A stretch of 64,000 nucleotides of DNA. Origin: Christensenellaceae bacterium (lineage in GTDB: Bacteria; Bacillota; Clostridia; Christensenellales; Christensenellaceae). Positions 42,912 through 48,246 of the stretch are shown here, piece after piece. The notes beneath the pieces were generated by a model, which was given only the letters and a program-made list of their open reading frames with translations, was not told the DNA's origin and did not search any database. The stretch is taken from positions 992,001 to 1,056,000 of the forward strand of contig AP025580.1 in the NCBI GenBank assembly GCA_022846035.1. The letters run 5' to 3'. Position 1 is the first letter of the stretch. Every line of letters begins with the position of its first letter. The position numbers and the translations under genes were made by a program.

Positions 42912-42977
42912 GTTATGCAAACTGAGAAAAGCACTCCGAAAGTGAACAGAAAATATCCGTTTGCAGCCGTATATGCG

Positions 42978-43006
42978 TTGACGGTGTTCACATCCGGTGA
43001 TATAAT
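42978..43006 (+). promoter_or_regulatory. Promoter of the importer operon
   Basis: TTGACG (42978-42983), 17-bp spacer with TGA extension, TATAAT (43001-43006); nearly consensus. Confidence 0.85.
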
Positions 43007-43012
43007 AACTTG

Positions 43013-43157
43013 ACGGAAACAAGAGAACAGAAATTATACCTTTTCGTTCAAAGGGGAATGTATAGAAAACCACCCTTGCGGGTGGTTATCATTTGAAAAT
43101 TTACGATATTTGCTCGGAATAAAGAGGTATACGTTATAGGTGAGTGGGGAGGTAGTT
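43013..43157 (+). promoter_or_regulatory. Structured ~145-base leader of the importer operon
   Basis: Between promoter and first ATG lie a hairpin TATACCTTT...AAAGG-GGAAT-GTATA (43036-43064) and an 8-bp perfect hairpin AACCACCC-TTGC-GGGTGGTT (43068-43087). No T run follows. It may be a cis-regulatory RNA or merely a stabilising structure; I recognise no known riboswitch class. Confidence 0.35.
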
Positions 43158-44132
43158 ATGAAGCGTTTGTTGATGGCCTTATTGGCCATAGTATTGTGTG
43201 TTTCTCTTACCTCTTGTTCGGGAAAAGGGGAAAACACGGTCGTCATCTATTCCAGCGCAGAACAATACCGCAATGAGTTTATCCTTTCGCGTCTTAAGGA
43301 ACAATTTCCTCAATATGATATTATTCTCGGATATATGCCTACCGGAAACCAGGCGGCGAGGCTGCTTGTAGAAGGGGAAAAGTCGGAATGCGATATAACG
43401 TATGACCTGGAATATGGATACGTCGATAAGTTAAAGGACGTTCTCGCCGATCTTTCCGAATATGATACCGCCAAATTTGAAGAGGATATGCTGGATCCGG
43501 CCGGCAGGGTATTGCCGGAATGCCGGAACGGCGGATGTATCGTCATTAATATGGATGAATTAAAGCAACGGGGATTAAGTGAACCCACCTGCTATGAAGA
43601 TTTATTAAAACCGGAATACAAGGGGCTTATTTCTATGCCTAGCCCGAAGTCCTCTGGAACAGGCTATATGTTTTTGAAATGCCTTGTAAATGCATGGGGG
43701 GAAGAACAGGCCTTTGATTATTTTGACAAGCTTTCCGAAAATATCTTGCAATATACGTCGTCAGGTTCCGGTCCTGTCAACGCCCTGGTGCAGGGAGAAG
43801 CGGTCATTGGCCTTGCAATGACACCACAGGCGGTAAAAGAGATCAACAACGGCGCGCCTTTGAAGATTTTGTATTTTGAAGAAGGATCGCCCTATTCGCG
43901 CTATGGCATAGGTATGATCAAGGGAAAAGAAAACAGGCAATGTGTGAGGGACGTATTTGACTACCTTAATTCAACGCTGGTGGCGGAGGATAAGAAGCAG
44001 TTCTTTCCGGAAAAAATCTATAAAGACATCGATTTTGAGATGAAAAATTTTCCTCAGAATATCAAATATGCCGATATGAGTAACGATACCAAGGCCGAAA
44101 AGGAACATCTGTTGGAAAAGTGGGTGCATTAG
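43158..44132 (+). CDS. Substrate-binding lipoprotein (Fe3+/AEP/polyamine type)
   Basis: A 324-residue extracellular solute-binding protein. The signal peptide ends in the lipobox LTSC (cysteine ~residue 22), so it is lipid-anchored. The mature part (ENTVVIYSSAEQYRNEFI, SPKSSGTGYMFLKCLVNAW, GSGPVNALVQGEAVIGLAM) fits the family 1/AfuA-PhnS class that binds ferric iron, 2-aminoethylphosphonate or thiamine-like ligands. GGGGAGG is 5 bases before ATG 43158; a GTG at 43140 is rejected. First gene of an importer operon; the co-transcribed cytidylyltransferase favours an amino-phosphonate or phospho-alcohol ligand (inference). Confidence 0.88.
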   Translation: MKRLLMALLAIVLCVSLTSCSGKGENTVVIYSSAEQYRNEFILSRLKEQFPQYDIILGYMPTGNQAARLLVEGEKSECDITYDLEYGYVDKLKDVLADLSEYDTAKFEEDMLDPAGRVLPECRNGGCIVINMDELKQRGLSEPTCYEDLLKPEYKGLISMPSPKSSGTGYMFLKCLVNAWGEEQAFDYFDKLSENILQYTSSGSGPVNALVQGEAVIGLAMTPQAVKEINNGAPLKILYFEEGSPYSRYGIGMIKGKENRQCVRDVFDYLNSTLVAEDKKQFFPEKIYKDIDFEMKNFPQNIKYADMSNDTKAEKEHLLEKWVH

Positions 44133-44897
44133 ATGAATGAGAAACTTGTAGTAGAAAATATTTCAAAGGATTTTGGATCGAACGAGGTGCTGCATAATCT
44201 TTGCTTTGCCGTATACGGAGGCGAGTTCCTATCCGTGCTGGGGCCGTCAGGTTGCGGAAAGACGACGCTTTTGCGTATGCTCATCGGATTAGAACAGCCA
44301 ACGAGCGGCAAAATATATAAGGACGGGATCGATATTACAAACAGCATGCCGTCGGCGAGGGGAATGGGCATCGTATTTCAGAATTATGCCCTGTTTGAGA
44401 ATATGACCGTCCTCGGAAATGTGGAATACGCGCTCAGGAAAAATCCGGCGTTTAAGGAACAGGCGAGAGAGACAGCCGAGCGGCTGATCGAGCAGGTAGG
44501 GCTTGCGGAGTATAAAAACAAACGGCCCAGTAAGCTTTCCGGCGGCCAGCAGCAGCGCGTTGCCATCGCGCGCACGCTCGCGCTGAATCCGGACATCATA
44601 CTCTTTGACGAACCGATGTCTGCGCTGGACGTGGATACCAGACTGACGCTGCGCCAGGAACTAAAGAATATACAAAAAAAATTTGGTTCAACAATGATTT
44701 ATATCACGCATGACCAGGAAGAGGCCTTTGCCATGTCAGACCGGATCATGGTTCTGAGCGAAGGAAAGATCCAACAGATCGACACACCGAGAAATATAAT
44801 CGACCATCCGGCAAATGAATATATCCAACGTTTTGTGATACACAATATCCAATTAAAGATCGATTCTCTGATTCAGTTTGCGAGGGCCAAGGTATGA
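44133..44897 (+). CDS. ABC importer ATPase (PotA/FbpC type)
   Basis: A 254-residue ATP-binding subunit. Walker A LGPSGCGKTTLLRMLIGLEQ (~residues 35-54), Q-loop IVFQNYALFENMTV, signature KLSGGQQQRVAIARTL (~135-150), Walker B IILFDEPMSALD, and the switch histidine in MIYITHDQEEAFAM. It starts within two bases of the lipoprotein stop and overlaps the permease gene by four bases. The C-terminus lacks the long regulatory TOBE domain of full MalK-like proteins. Confidence 0.94.
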   Translation: MNEKLVVENISKDFGSNEVLHNLCFAVYGGEFLSVLGPSGCGKTTLLRMLIGLEQPTSGKIYKDGIDITNSMPSARGMGIVFQNYALFENMTVLGNVEYALRKNPAFKEQARETAERLIEQVGLAEYKNKRPSKLSGGQQQRVAIARTLALNPDIILFDEPMSALDVDTRLTLRQELKNIQKKFGSTMIYITHDQEEAFAMSDRIMVLSEGKIQQIDTPRNIIDHPANEYIQRFVIHNIQLKIDSLIQFARAKV

Positions 44898-46486
44898 GCG
44901 GCCTTAAGCGAAAGGGATTGTCGGGGGTCAAGCTGCTTCTGGCTGCGTTTTTTATCGTTGCCGTTTTGCTGCCGCTGATCTGTATGCTTACGACAATGGC
45001 GGGCGAGGATGTAGGCGGCCTGATTACGTCCGAAGGCTTTATGACGGCTCTTGGACATTCCGCATGGGTATCTTTTGTTTCCACGCTGATTTCGGTAGGG
45101 CTGGCGGTAGTGCTTGCATGGTTTATTCAGCGTTCGGCTATACGCTGTAAAGGACTGTTTACCATCCTGTTCACGCTGCCGATGCTTATCCCATCGATTT
45201 CGCACGGTATGGGGCTTGTGGTACTGTTCGGTTCCAATGGCGTACTGACAAACCTGCTCCACATCAATGGCAATATTTACGGCTTCTGGGGAATTGTGAT
45301 CGGCTCGGTGATGTATTCGTTTCCGGTGGCCTTTTTGATGGTCTCCGACATGATGCGTTACGAGGACAGCACGCCCTATGAGGCGGCGTCCGTGCTGGGG
45401 CTTTCGAAAGCGAATCAATTCAGCGCCATTACGTTTCCTTATATGCGTAAGCCGATGATTTCGGTCATATTTGCCGTATTTACGCTGGTGATTACGGATT
45501 ATGGCGTACCGCTCACGGTGGGGGGGCAGTTTACGACCCTGCCGGTGATGATGTATCAGGACGTGGTTGGGCTTCTGAATTTCGGCAAAGGAAGCGTAAT
45601 CGGTCTGGTGTTGCTCATTCCGGCGTTTATCGCCTTTTTGATCGACTTGCTTGATAAAAATAAGGCCAGCCTTTCCTTTGTGATCAAACCATTTCGAATA
45701 CTCAAAAATAAAGTGCGGGATGGGATCGCTTATCTTTCGTGCAGCGTGGTAAGCCTATGTATCCTGCTGCCGATCGCCGCTTTTGCTGTTTTGACCTTTG
45801 TCAAAAAGTATCCGATCGATATGTCGCTCACGCTGGATAATATTACCAAGACAATGGACATAGGCGCGGGACGGTATTTGGCAAATTCACTGATTATTGC
45901 AGTGTGCGTCTCTGTAATCGGTGTGGTGATTGCTTATATTACCGCATACATGACGGCGCGCGTGCAATCCAAATCATCTAAAATGCTTCATTTGGTTTCC
46001 ATCATAACGCTTGCGATCCCGGGGCTTGTTTTGGGCCTTTCCTATATGATATTTTTCAACGGGTCGTTTATTTATGGTACGCTTGCGATTTTGATCCTTG
46101 TTAATATTATGCATTTCTTCGCATCGCCATACCTGATGATGTACAATACTTTCGGTAAACTGAACCAAAATCTGGAAGCGGTAGGGGCGACGCTGGGTAT
46201 CAGCAGGAGACGAATTATCCTTGACGTCCTGATCCCGCAGTCGAAAGCGACGATTGCGGAGATGTTCGCATATTTCTTTGTGAATTCGATGATGACAATT
46301 TCCGCGGTGTCTTTTCTTTCTACATTCACCACGCAGCCGTTGTCGCTGATGATCACGCTTTTTGAGGCGCAGATGATGCTGGAAAGTACAGCGTTTGTTT
46401 CGCTGCTCATTCTGGGCGTAAATCTGGCGCTTAAGGGGGGGATCAATTTGTATAAAAGAAATTTAAGGAAAAAGGAACTGGCATGA
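44894..46486 (+). CDS. ABC importer permease, two fused halves
   Basis: A 530-residue permease with about 12 membrane segments made of two homologous halves. Each half has an EAA-loop for the ATPase: YEAASVLGLSKANQFSAITF (~residues 163-182) and LEAVGATLGISRRRIILDVL (~428-447). This two-in-one form is that of SfuB/FbpB iron and PhnU/V-like 2-aminoethylphosphonate permeases. It overlaps the ATPase gene and the cytidylyltransferase gene by four bases each (ATGA), so the importer and the enzyme are translated as one coupled unit. Confidence 0.93.
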   Translation: MSGLKRKGLSGVKLLLAAFFIVAVLLPLICMLTTMAGEDVGGLITSEGFMTALGHSAWVSFVSTLISVGLAVVLAWFIQRSAIRCKGLFTILFTLPMLIPSISHGMGLVVLFGSNGVLTNLLHINGNIYGFWGIVIGSVMYSFPVAFLMVSDMMRYEDSTPYEAASVLGLSKANQFSAITFPYMRKPMISVIFAVFTLVITDYGVPLTVGGQFTTLPVMMYQDVVGLLNFGKGSVIGLVLLIPAFIAFLIDLLDKNKASLSFVIKPFRILKNKVRDGIAYLSCSVVSLCILLPIAAFAVLTFVKKYPIDMSLTLDNITKTMDIGAGRYLANSLIIAVCVSVIGVVIAYITAYMTARVQSKSSKMLHLVSIITLAIPGLVLGLSYMIFFNGSFIYGTLAILILVNIMHFFASPYLMMYNTFGKLNQNLEAVGATLGISRRRIILDVLIPQSKATIAEMFAYFFVNSMMTISAVSFLSTFTTQPLSLMITLFEAQMMLESTAFVSLLILGVNLALKGGINLYKRNLRKKELA

Positions 46487-47376
46487 ACTTAACGAGAAAC
46501 CAATTTGATCTTTTGACCTGTATGGAAAAAAAGGGAACGCGCACGCAGCGCGAACTGGCGAAACAAACGAATAAGGCGCTGGGGACCGTCAATAAGGGAA
46601 TAGCCGAGCTTTCACAGATGGGTTATGTACAAGATGGCGCGATTACACAAAAGGGGATAAATGCACTCGAACCTTATCGGGTGAAACGCGCGATTTTTAT
46701 TGCGGCAGGCTTTGGTACGCGACTTGTACCAATCACCCTGAATACCCCCAAGCCACTTGTGCGGGTCAACGGAACGCGTATCATCGATACGCTGCTTGAT
46801 GCGGTAATCGCCGTGGGAATTGAAGAAATTTATATTGTACGGGGGTATTTGGCCGAGCAGTTCGACCAACTGTTATACAAATATCCAATGATAAAATTTA
46901 TCGAAAATCCGGTTTATAATGAGGCGAACAATATTTCATCGGTCATGTACGCAAGGGAGTTTCTGGAAAATGCTTATGTACTGGAAGCGGATTTGCTGCT
47001 GTACCACCCGCACGTTATCGCAAAATACCAATATGCTTCCAATTACCTGGGCGTACCGACAGAGAAAACGGACGATTGGTGCTTTTACAGCACAAACCAT
47101 AAATATATTACGAAAATGAGCGTCGGCGGCACTAATTGCTACCACATGTTTGGTATATCCTATTGGACAAGCGGAGATGGCAGGCGGCTTGCGGAATGCG
47201 TTAAGGATGTATACGAGAGTCCTGGCGGCAAAGAACGGTACTGGGACCAGGTTCCTCTGGAATATCATCTGAAAGACTTCAGTGTGGAAATACGGGAATG
47301 CTCCTTTGAGGATATAACAGAAATCGATACTTACAAAGAACTAAAAAAGATCGACCCGACCTATGGGGAAGCTTAA
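46483..47376 (+). CDS. Winged-helix/LicC-type nucleotidyltransferase fusion
   Basis: A 297-residue two-domain protein. Residues 1-65 are a MarR-like winged helix (GTRTQRELAKQTNKALGTVN). Residues 66-290 are a GT-A sugar/alcohol-phosphate nucleotidyltransferase: FIAAGFGTRLVPITLNTPKP (nucleotide loop, with the conserved lysine), VYNEANNISSVMYAREFLEN as in LicC (CTP:phosphocholine cytidylyltransferase), metal aspartate in VLEADLLLY (~167), and a final EIDTYKELKKID. PntC, a relative, makes CMP-2-aminoethylphosphonate. It overlaps the permease gene. Inference: it activates the imported compound for glycan or lipid decoration, and the winged helix senses it or regulates the operon. No LicA kinase is adjacent. 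Confidence 0.82.
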   Translation: MNLTRNQFDLLTCMEKKGTRTQRELAKQTNKALGTVNKGIAELSQMGYVQDGAITQKGINALEPYRVKRAIFIAAGFGTRLVPITLNTPKPLVRVNGTRIIDTLLDAVIAVGIEEIYIVRGYLAEQFDQLLYKYPMIKFIENPVYNEANNISSVMYAREFLENAYVLEADLLLYHPHVIAKYQYASNYLGVPTEKTDDWCFYSTNHKYITKMSVGGTNCYHMFGISYWTSGDGRRLAECVKDVYESPGGKERYWDQVPLEYHLKDFSVEIRECSFEDITEIDTYKELKKIDPTYGEA

Positions 47377-47391
47377 AGAAGCGTTACATTG

Positions 47392-48246
47392 TCAGTAGCC
47401 GTTAAGAAAGCCAGCAGGCTTTCTTTTTTTTGCAATCGCATCGTCATAGCCAACCTGATATTGGGCGGATAGCTTTTGAGGATCCTTTTCCATACGGCCG
47501 GCGATGATGGGCTGGGTGGGACGGATGATGATGGCGCTGCCATCCTTTTCCTGCTGCTCGGCTATACGGAGGCTCTCGTTATAATATTGATAGCGGTTTG
47601 CTATCGTACGCGCAAACGCGCGGTGTGCTGGGTAACGCAAATACGCATACCAGCTCATCTTGCTTTTTTGGTGTGTAAAACCCTCGTTGCGCGTGAGGAC
47701 GATCACGTTTTTGCGGTTCCCTTTCCTCAGGGAATATTCGATTGGGATGGAATCGCTGGCACCGCCGTCCATCAGCTTGTGTCCGTCGGCTTTGACAATG
47801 GTGGAAGCCATGGGGATCGCCGCAGAGGCGCACAGGTATTTCATATCGGTATCGCAATTGAGGTCGTTTAGCTGATGGTAAAAGGCTTTGCCGTCATCAA
47901 CATTCGTCGCGACAATGGTAAGCTTTTTAGGAGAGTTTTTATAGGCTTCGTAATCAAAGGGAATGATGTTGCGCGTTACTTCGTAGAATACATATTTCAT
48001 CCCAAAAAAAGAACCGGTGGTAAGAAAATTCCAAAAGCTCAAATATTTGCGGTTGATACATGTGTTGTAAATGGTCAGGTTGCGGCCGCGCTGTCCGGAA
48101 ATATAGGAAATCGCATTCGCGGCACCGGCGGAAACGCCGATAATGTCTTCCATGTGTACGCCCATATCGAGGAAAGCGTCCAGCACGCCCGCCGTATACG
48201 AACCGCGCATGCCGCCGCCTTCTAATATTAAACCGGCTTTTGTCAT
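47392..48246 (-). CDS. Patatin-like phospholipase (RssA/YjjU type)
   Basis: A 284-residue serine lipid hydrolase. Oxyanion-hole motif LILEGGGMRGSYTAGVLDAF (~residues 6-25), nucleophile elbow GVSAGAANAI (Ser ~40), and the dyad aspartate in LMDGGASDSIPIEY (~160). No signal peptide, so it acts on inner-leaflet or cytosolic lipids. GAGGTG stands about 9 bases before ATG 48246. It is convergent with the importer operon and its end doubles as that operon's terminator. Confidence 0.92.
   Translation of the reverse strand: MTKAGLILEGGGMRGSYTAGVLDAFLDMGVHMEDIIGVSAGAANAISYISGQRGRNLTIYNTCINRKYLSFWNFLTTGSFFGMKYVFYEVTRNIIPFDYEAYKNSPKKLTIVATNVDDGKAFYHQLNDLNCDTDMKYLCASAAIPMASTIVKADGHKLMDGGASDSIPIEYSLRKGNRKNVIVLTRNEGFTHQKSKMSWYAYLRYPAHRAFARTIANRYQYYNESLRIAEQQEKDGSAIIIRPTQPIIAGRMEKDPQKLSAQYQVGYDDAIAKKRKPAGFLNGY
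47404..47431 (+). terminator. Importer operon terminator inside the patatin 3' end
   Basis: AAGAAAGCC (47404-47412) pairs with GGCTTTCTT (47417-47425), loop AGCA, then a T run. It lies in the last codons of the convergent patatin gene. Confidence 0.8.

Follow-up and report, generated by a model that had tools for sequence, protein, structure and literature searches.

A putative operon for scavenging and activation of 2-aminoethylphosphonate, with a winged-helix cytidylyltransferase, in a Christensenellaceae bacterium

2-Aminoethylphosphonate (AEP) on cell surfaces is usually ascribed to the organism's own synthesis via phosphoenolpyruvate (PEP) mutase, and AEP import to feeding, while enzymes that double as repressors are exemplified by BirA, the enzyme-repressor for biotin. 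The AEP transporter AepXVW has been described as serving AEP breakdown (PMC8316502, PMC10574752), and PntC cytidylyltransferases as making cytidine monophosphate-AEP (CMP-AEP) (Rice et al. 2019, PMC6697681). Here we analyse a 64,000-nucleotide stretch (the window) of a Christensenellaceae bacterium (assembly GCA_022846035.1, contig AP025580.1, positions 992,001 to 1,056,000; host genome 2.77 Mb, 99.76% complete), in which one operon joins an importer with best matches to putative AEP transport proteins to a PntC/LicC-type cytidylyltransferase fused to a winged helix. With a probability of roughly 0.7, we consider this operon to be an AEP scavenging-and-activation module, for which we infer ligand, catalysis, DNA binding, signal and acceptor from sequence. 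In the proposed mechanism, the lipoprotein would bind extracellular AEP or a closely similar aminophosphonate, the ATPase and the fused permease would bring it in, and the cytidylyltransferase domain would join it to cytidine triphosphate (CTP) to give CMP-AEP, from which a transferase encoded elsewhere would transfer AEP to a glycan or lipid of the cell surface. The winged helix would bind a TGTTCA/TGAACA operator over the promoter, so that importer and enzyme might be co-regulated by the ligand state of the enzyme (AEP, CTP or CMP-AEP), in the manner of BirA and biotin. The genes and the element behind them are as follows.

43158..44132, + strand: substrate-binding lipoprotein, nearest AepX/PhnS2
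44133..44897, + strand: ATP-binding cassette (ABC) ATPase of 254 amino acids, nearest PhnT2/AepV (TIGR03265)
44894..46486, + strand: fused double permease, nearest PhnU2/AepW (TIGR03262)
46483..47376, + strand: winged helix (residues 1 to ~65) fused to a PntC/LicC-type cytidylyltransferase (residues 67-297)
47404..47425, + strand: terminator-like hairpin with a T run, 3' of the enzyme gene

Gene coordinates and Pfam bear out the four-gene operon of the original prediction, including the four-base overlaps within its last three genes (44894-44897 between ATPase and permease, 46483-46486 between permease and enzyme). The best lipoprotein start is the ATG at 43158, with GGAGG in front and an LTSC lipobox (read by eye), and its stop codon (44130-44132) directly abuts the ATPase ATG at 44133 with zero overlap. 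Pfam assigns the lipoprotein to SBP_bac_6 (E 8e-20), the ATPase to ABC_tran (E 3e-35), two stretches of the permease to BPD_transp_1, and the enzyme to HTH_24 (31.1 bits, cut-off 21.9) plus NTP_transferase (7e-11). An activase-like gene lies upstream, and patatin and GDPD genes lie downstream. The operon with its flanks (activase-like gene, patatin) is kept in two of five same-genus genomes (G004 and G005); the other three gave weak matches only.

Evidence on the ligand comes from relatives of the enzyme. A scan of species genomes returned at least 515 of them, and the loci of the best 80 (63-78% identical), all from Bacillota and Spirochaetota, were analysed; phyla, here and in the genome counts below, were sorted by record title. 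The nearest named relative is that of Christensenella hongkongensis (L046, 78%). Homologues of the lipoprotein or permease stand at 59 of the 80 loci, a pairing that extends across both phyla; the association of importer and enzyme is not a matter of chance. PEP mutase is encoded at six of the 80 loci (L092, L094, L108, L110, L115 and L123), where phosphonopyruvate decarboxylase and AEP aminotransferase join it and the enzyme; in L094 and L108 all three biosynthetic proteins score over their NCBIfam cut-offs. AEP biosynthesis, importer and enzyme are found together at one locus in L092 and L094, and the importer-like genes of L115 are more distant (26-39%). L116, with an AEP-aminotransferase-like gene and no PEP mutase at the locus, was excluded from the PEP-mutase-linked count. 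Choline kinase is present at a single one of the 80 loci (L121), in a LicC-LicA gene distinct from that of the winged-helix enzyme. A maximum-likelihood tree was built from 49 cytidylyltransferase domains, several of its branches being long and unsure; in it, a winged-helix clade of 37 rows (support 99/99) unites importer-linked and PEP-mutase-linked enzymes and contains zero LicA-linked ones.

The structural model of the enzyme has a predicted local distance difference test (pLDDT) score of 94, and both profile and fold comparisons place LicC (1jyk) first and PntC (6pd1/6pd2) second, with profile E-values for residues 67-297 of 3e-40 to LicC 1jyk and 3e-16 to PntC 6pd1. The LicC/PntC fold is present with D107 and the metal ligand E216, both kept in all 77 aligned sequences. 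Residues suggested to bear on selectivity are Glu104/Glu196 in Tde-PntC versus Asp105/Asp192 in LicC, according to the work on PntC (PMC6697681). At the first of these positions (LicC D105, Tde-PntC E104) the window enzyme has Glu, as do 74 of the 77 aligned homologues including itself, the other three having Asp; this alignment left out L051, L113, L116 and L121, of which L051, L116 and L121 have Glu in a separate alignment. Glu occupies the LicC-105 position in all eight PEP-mutase-linked enzymes (L042, L043, L092, L094, L108, L110, L115, L123), with PEP mutase assigned by NCBIfam over cut-off in L042, L043, L094, L108 and L115 and by similarity to these in L092, L110 and L123, as well as in both PntC-AEPT fusions (L115, 6pd1). 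It is found in none of the five enzymes whose linkage to LicA was confirmed by Pfam, which have Val, Pro, Ser, Ser and Asp (L039, L041 twice, L045, L121).

For the three importer proteins, the best NCBIfam matches are putative AEP models, TIGR03261 (177 bits, equivalog cut-off 393), TIGR03265 (311, cut-off 458; positions 2-241 of 353 only) and TIGR03262 (387, cut-off 593), and because the scores lie well under the cut-offs, we do not class the proteins as members of AepXVW/PhnS2T2U2. The order binding protein, ATPase, fused double permease is that of AepXVW and also recurs in two plasmid regions. Among plasmid records the lipoprotein matched 361; within the 25 listed (28.6-32.0% identity), seven are annotated as putative AEP binders, one as an iron binder and the rest without ligand. 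In the two plasmid regions inspected, lipoprotein homologues adjoin phnW-phnA-phnY and phnWX genes, respectively. The lipoprotein model is confident (pLDDT 92), and its first fold matches, P5PA, AfuA and VcA0625 (pyridoxal phosphate or hexose phosphate binders), also lead the profile ranking, where organophosphate binders score 1e-30 and stronger versus 6e-11 and weaker for iron and polyamine binders; fold comparison gives the same order. Residues around the phosphate of AfuA are described in PMC8427247, and of the seven used for comparison, five are identical in the lipoprotein; Thr stands in place of S37, just as it does in P5PA, and Glu in place of T60. The sugar contacts of AfuA (PMC4546632, PMC8427247), as far as they can be aligned (Y103, H205, D206 and E229), are not kept. 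The pocket pattern thus seems to fit a ligand that carries a phosphate or phosphonate but is not a sugar phosphate, and does not by itself name AEP.

We also considered which pathway genes accompany the operon in the host genome. PEP mutase (PF13714) gave no match, and the statement of the original prediction that LicA kinase is missing holds for PF01633, which is unmatched in the host genome and does detect the kinase in the LicC-LicA fusions of relatives; PF01636 kinases were not searched. The LicD-type transferase that the same prediction had proposed to look for elsewhere in the genome is represented by one LicD gene, with a GT8-like gene (GT8 by reading) behind it. When five LicDs were compared with that of the host, the three closest (35-38%) came from the vicinity of winged-helix enzymes in L055/L057, followed by the LicD of L044 (32%) and that of the PEP-mutase-linked L042 (29%), a pattern that is no more than suggestive. 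LicD, by its presence in the genome, is the only candidate found for the acceptor-side transferase; a search for a sulfatase-like transferase gave no match, without a positive control. The absence of choline kinase and PEP mutase matches together with one LicD fits scavenging. In 48 importer genomes, mostly drafts, so that absences are soft, PEP mutase is over cut-off in 13, namely 11 of 16 from Spirochaetota and two of 32 others (Bacillota), and choline kinase in one, with seven more below cut-off.

Control of the operon may lie in a promoter region with the following features.

42978..43006, + strand: sigma-70-like promoter, TTGACG (42978-42983), 17 bp, TATAAT (43001-43006); 11 of 12 matches
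42943..42948, no strand assigned: putative operator half-site TGAACA, upstream of the promoter
42985..42990, no strand assigned: putative operator half-site TGTTCA, immediately after the -35 hexamer
43024..43029, no strand assigned: putative operator half-site AGAACA
43045..43050, no strand assigned: further putative half-site CGTTCA
43068..43087, + strand: GC-rich leader hairpin AACCACCC-TTGC-GGGTGGTT, between promoter and first gene

The motif was counted in 68 upstreams, from those of the 80 loci in which a first gene could be assigned and was preceded by over 220 bases; the window was not included. TGAACA on either strand occurs in 52 of them versus 50 of 306 control upstreams. The longer TTGAY-(0-4)-GTTC is present in 33 of the 68 versus six of the 306 controls, which are other genes at these loci (Fisher P 2e-22), a result weakened by the motif having been chosen after viewing the same upstreams on which it was counted and by the relatedness of the loci being uncorrected; shuffled upstreams contain it 0.78 times on average and three times at most. 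By class, it stands ahead of 19 of 34 lipoprotein-first operons, eight of 12 enzyme-first operons with importer and six of 22 enzymes alone. Of the 40 GTTC-GAAC pairs within 80 bases, 32 have a distance of 29-31 (30 in 23 pairs, 31 in seven, 29 in two, and eight other distances once each), and the arms of the repeat straddle the promoter. The window has TTGACGG-TGTTCA plus the half-sites at 42943, 43024 and 43045. In L094 the motif precedes decarboxylase, aminotransferase and PEP mutase, and in L108, L110 and L123 it precedes the enzyme gene. Alongside it, the putative recognition helix is conserved (G34 in 42 of 43 sequences, N37 in 40 of 43), and the winged-helix protein is the only regulator known to be common to these loci. 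We infer that this protein binds the TGTTCA/TGAACA motif, and the presence of the motif at the window promoter supports autoregulation by the fused winged helix. The region 42978-43157, to which the original prediction had assigned winged-helix binding, thereby gains, by sequence, an operator-like motif at its promoter, and the promoter-like site starts at the first base of this region. TTGACNNYGTTCA occurs three times in the host genome, and no second operator target was found, because both other sites are within coding frames.

As for the leader, its folding as a whole has a z of -2.5, and the hairpin has a changed yet paired counterpart in L035 and none in L036; a role as attenuator is possible, the indication being weak. 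A search of the leader against Rfam gave one match, which at 18 bits fell short of the gathering score of 40 (E 0.0098) and lay half over the upstream gene.

A number of observations weigh against AEP as the ligand or against the proposed control, besides the importer scores below cut-off. The cytidylyltransferase domain is nearer in sequence to LicC than to Tde-PntC, and the second selectivity position (LicC D192, Tde-PntC E196) is the LicC-like Asp in the window enzyme, being Glu in L108, L110 and L123. The PEP-mutase-linked enzymes of L042 and L043, which have no winged helix, fall outside the winged-helix clade, beside LicC 1jyk, with weak support (88/47). The putative AEP binder with a solved structure, 4r6y, comes behind iron binders in the profile ranking and 24th by fold, and at the four positions of the AfuA sugar contacts the lipoprotein has N, P, Q and S versus Y, F, P and E/D in two AepX homologues, so that the other end of the ligand may be held differently. 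No transferase gene is present in the operon and no PF04464 match in the host genome. GTTC and GAAC are 39 apart over the window promoter, versus 30 in most pairs of relatives. Finally, the expectation that genomes would have either importer or PEP mutase failed, only two of 18 genomes with neither at the locus having PEP mutase, in a check that did not seek importers elsewhere and in which L068, among the 18, comes from a genome that also contains the importer locus L125.

Several of these points are also what one would expect if phosphocholine, phosphoethanolamine or a glycerophospho-ester were imported and the enzyme were a LicC or an ethanolamine-phosphate cytidylyltransferase, a kinase being needless for a ligand already phosphorylated. 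Chief among them is that W136, Y190 and W191, which we take to form the aromatic box of LicC, are kept, as is D192. The aromatic-box residues are also reported in Ari-PntC, an AEP-preferring enzyme (Rice et al., PMC6697681). LicC 1jyk as the closest solved structure, the LicD in the genome, the patatin and GDPD genes after the operon and the pocket unlike that of AepX point in the same direction. AEP is nevertheless favoured over phosphocholine because of the nearest importer models, the PEP-mutase linkage in six of 80 loci, the clade with LicA-linked enzymes outside it, and Glu instead of Asp at LicC-105, as in PEP-mutase-linked enzymes. Phosphocholine as first choice was rejected on the last two grounds together with the absent kinase match and choline kinase in one of 48 importer genomes, and we regard this alternative, the chief rival, as unlikely. 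The ligands considered in the original prediction are thus narrowed towards AEP, and its core (uptake of a head group that is phosphorylated or a phosphonate, activation with CTP, no LicA, and winged-helix control) is well supported at the level of sequence.

Considerably less probable is the import of AEP or another phosphonate for catabolism, as a source of phosphorus or nitrogen, with the enzyme domain mainly a sensor. Two named importer homologues do lie within phnWAY-type and phnWX operons, and fusion to a winged helix can make a ligand-binding enzyme a sensor, but the operon is without a phnWX/WAY gene, PhnW has no match over cut-off in the host genome (42.8 bits at best against a cut-off of 400.8, in a search that did not extend to C-P lyase or PhnX), D107 and E216 are kept in all 77 aligned sequences, and a nutrient operon leaves the pairing of the enzyme with PEP mutase unexplained. 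Least probable of all, and rejected on lipoprotein profile, pocket residues and fold ranking, is an importer of Fe3+, polyamine or sugar phosphate with a nucleoside diphosphate (NDP)-sugar pyrophosphorylase merely sharing the operon: iron, polyamine and hexose-phosphate binders are among the families of this substrate-binding fold and the NTP_transferase fold is common to RmlA and GalU, but the AfuA sugar contacts are lost, iron and polyamine binders trail organophosphate binders, LicC and PntC match ahead of sugar enzymes, and the importer-enzyme pairing holds in two phyla.

The loci of relatives contain further genes that may be of interest in their own right. In Beduini massiliensis (L087:8399-10891), permease and winged-helix cytidylyltransferase are in one 830-codon frame, which may unite transport and activation in one protein, an internal start being possible. 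A glycerophosphotransferase-like protein is encoded within ~10 kb of the winged-helix enzyme in 27 of the 80 loci (e.g. L060:1530-3635), with PF04464 confirmed in the two scanned. In 21 loci the N-terminal part of this protein resembles YidC, PF02096 being confirmed in one of them; the protein is a candidate CMP-AEP transferase in these loci. Membrane sulfatase-like neighbours are present in 16 of the 80 (L060:4470-6362 is over the Pfam cut-off, L047:3042-4766 below), and small META-domain proteins near the operon in seven (L061:10360-11136, L092:10922-11422; the two scanned are from Spirochaetota). TTGAY-(0-4)-GTTC was not found ahead of YidC-like (0/20), glycerophosphotransferase-like (0/26), sulfatase-like (0/16), LicD (0/2) or META (0/7) genes. 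The operator-like inverted repeat precedes one of 26 glycerophosphotransferase-like and five of 16 sulfatase-like genes; in loci such as L060 and L066 the sulfatase-like genes are divergent from the operon, with which they may have a control region in common. LicC-LicA fusions are encoded in L039:12403-14175, L041:7890-9671 and L121:12633-14432, that of L041 including a winged helix that scores over the Pfam cut-off. L039 and L041 each have another LicC-like gene nearby, and a BCCT transporter comes next in L041. In L044:180-2597, adjoining a LicD-like gene, a cytidylyltransferase-like domain is fused to a serine-hydroxymethyltransferase-like domain, as shown by Pfam; its assignment as a LicA fusion (L044_180) was therefore dropped, as was that of L040_2 as a PntC-AEPT fusion, which by reading combines NTP-transferase with another kind of aminotransferase, and both were left out of the counts.

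If the AEP reading is correct, the operon couples AEP import to activation and would parallel choline scavenging, with a phosphonate as the compound taken up. Import could replace AEP synthesis in many such bacteria, since PEP mutase is over cut-off in so few of the Bacillota importer genomes (2/32). The odds seem to us slightly better than even that this is a widespread and probably horizontally spread pathway, by which Clostridia and Spirochaetes of the gut, many lacking PEP mutase, add AEP from their neighbours to their own envelopes, the enzyme doubling as repressor. AEP is available in guts, and its sources could be other bacteria, ciliates or diet; the text of PMC8861647 gives ciliates as the organisms in which AEP was first found, and PMC11839056 lists it among sheep rumen metabolites. 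The flagellin of Clostridioides difficile is described as carrying AEP, with an earlier survey having found no PEP mutase there, and the authors leave open whether this bacterium takes AEP up (PMC8861647). With this operon, such an uptake question becomes testable in harmless gut anaerobes. Scavenging of this kind would be one explanation for the surface AEP of gut bacteria that lack PEP mutase, and the operon provides a switch in a single protein whose putative operator is defined. Among the matches listed from the open-access literature, subscription papers lying outside the search, there was no report of an AEP importer with LicC/PntC, of a winged-helix LicC or of such scavenging.

Compared with known systems, the operon is like AepXVW/PhnS2-PhnT2-PhnU2 in gene order and in the best NCBIfam matches of all three proteins, and differs in scoring below their cut-offs, in a pocket unlike at four positions, and in pairing the importer with a cytidylyltransferase, whereas AepXVW is paired with phnWX/WAY. 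It shares with PntC (Ari-PntC; Tde-PntC 6pd1/6pd2) the fold, Glu at LicC-105 and, in some relatives, PEP-mutase clusters; unlike PntC, the enzyme has a fused winged helix and Asp at the second position, and the genome has no PEP mutase match. With the lic operon, which scavenges choline for surface phosphocholine, it would have in common a logic of head-group import, CTP activation and LicD-type transfer; it differs in the lack of a kinase match in the genome, an ABC importer, another clade and another residue at LicC-105. Although its enzyme is unrelated to BirA, the operon resembles enzyme-repressors of the BirA type, as far as sequence goes, in the fusion of a DNA-binding domain to an enzyme and in the operator-like repeat at its own promoter.

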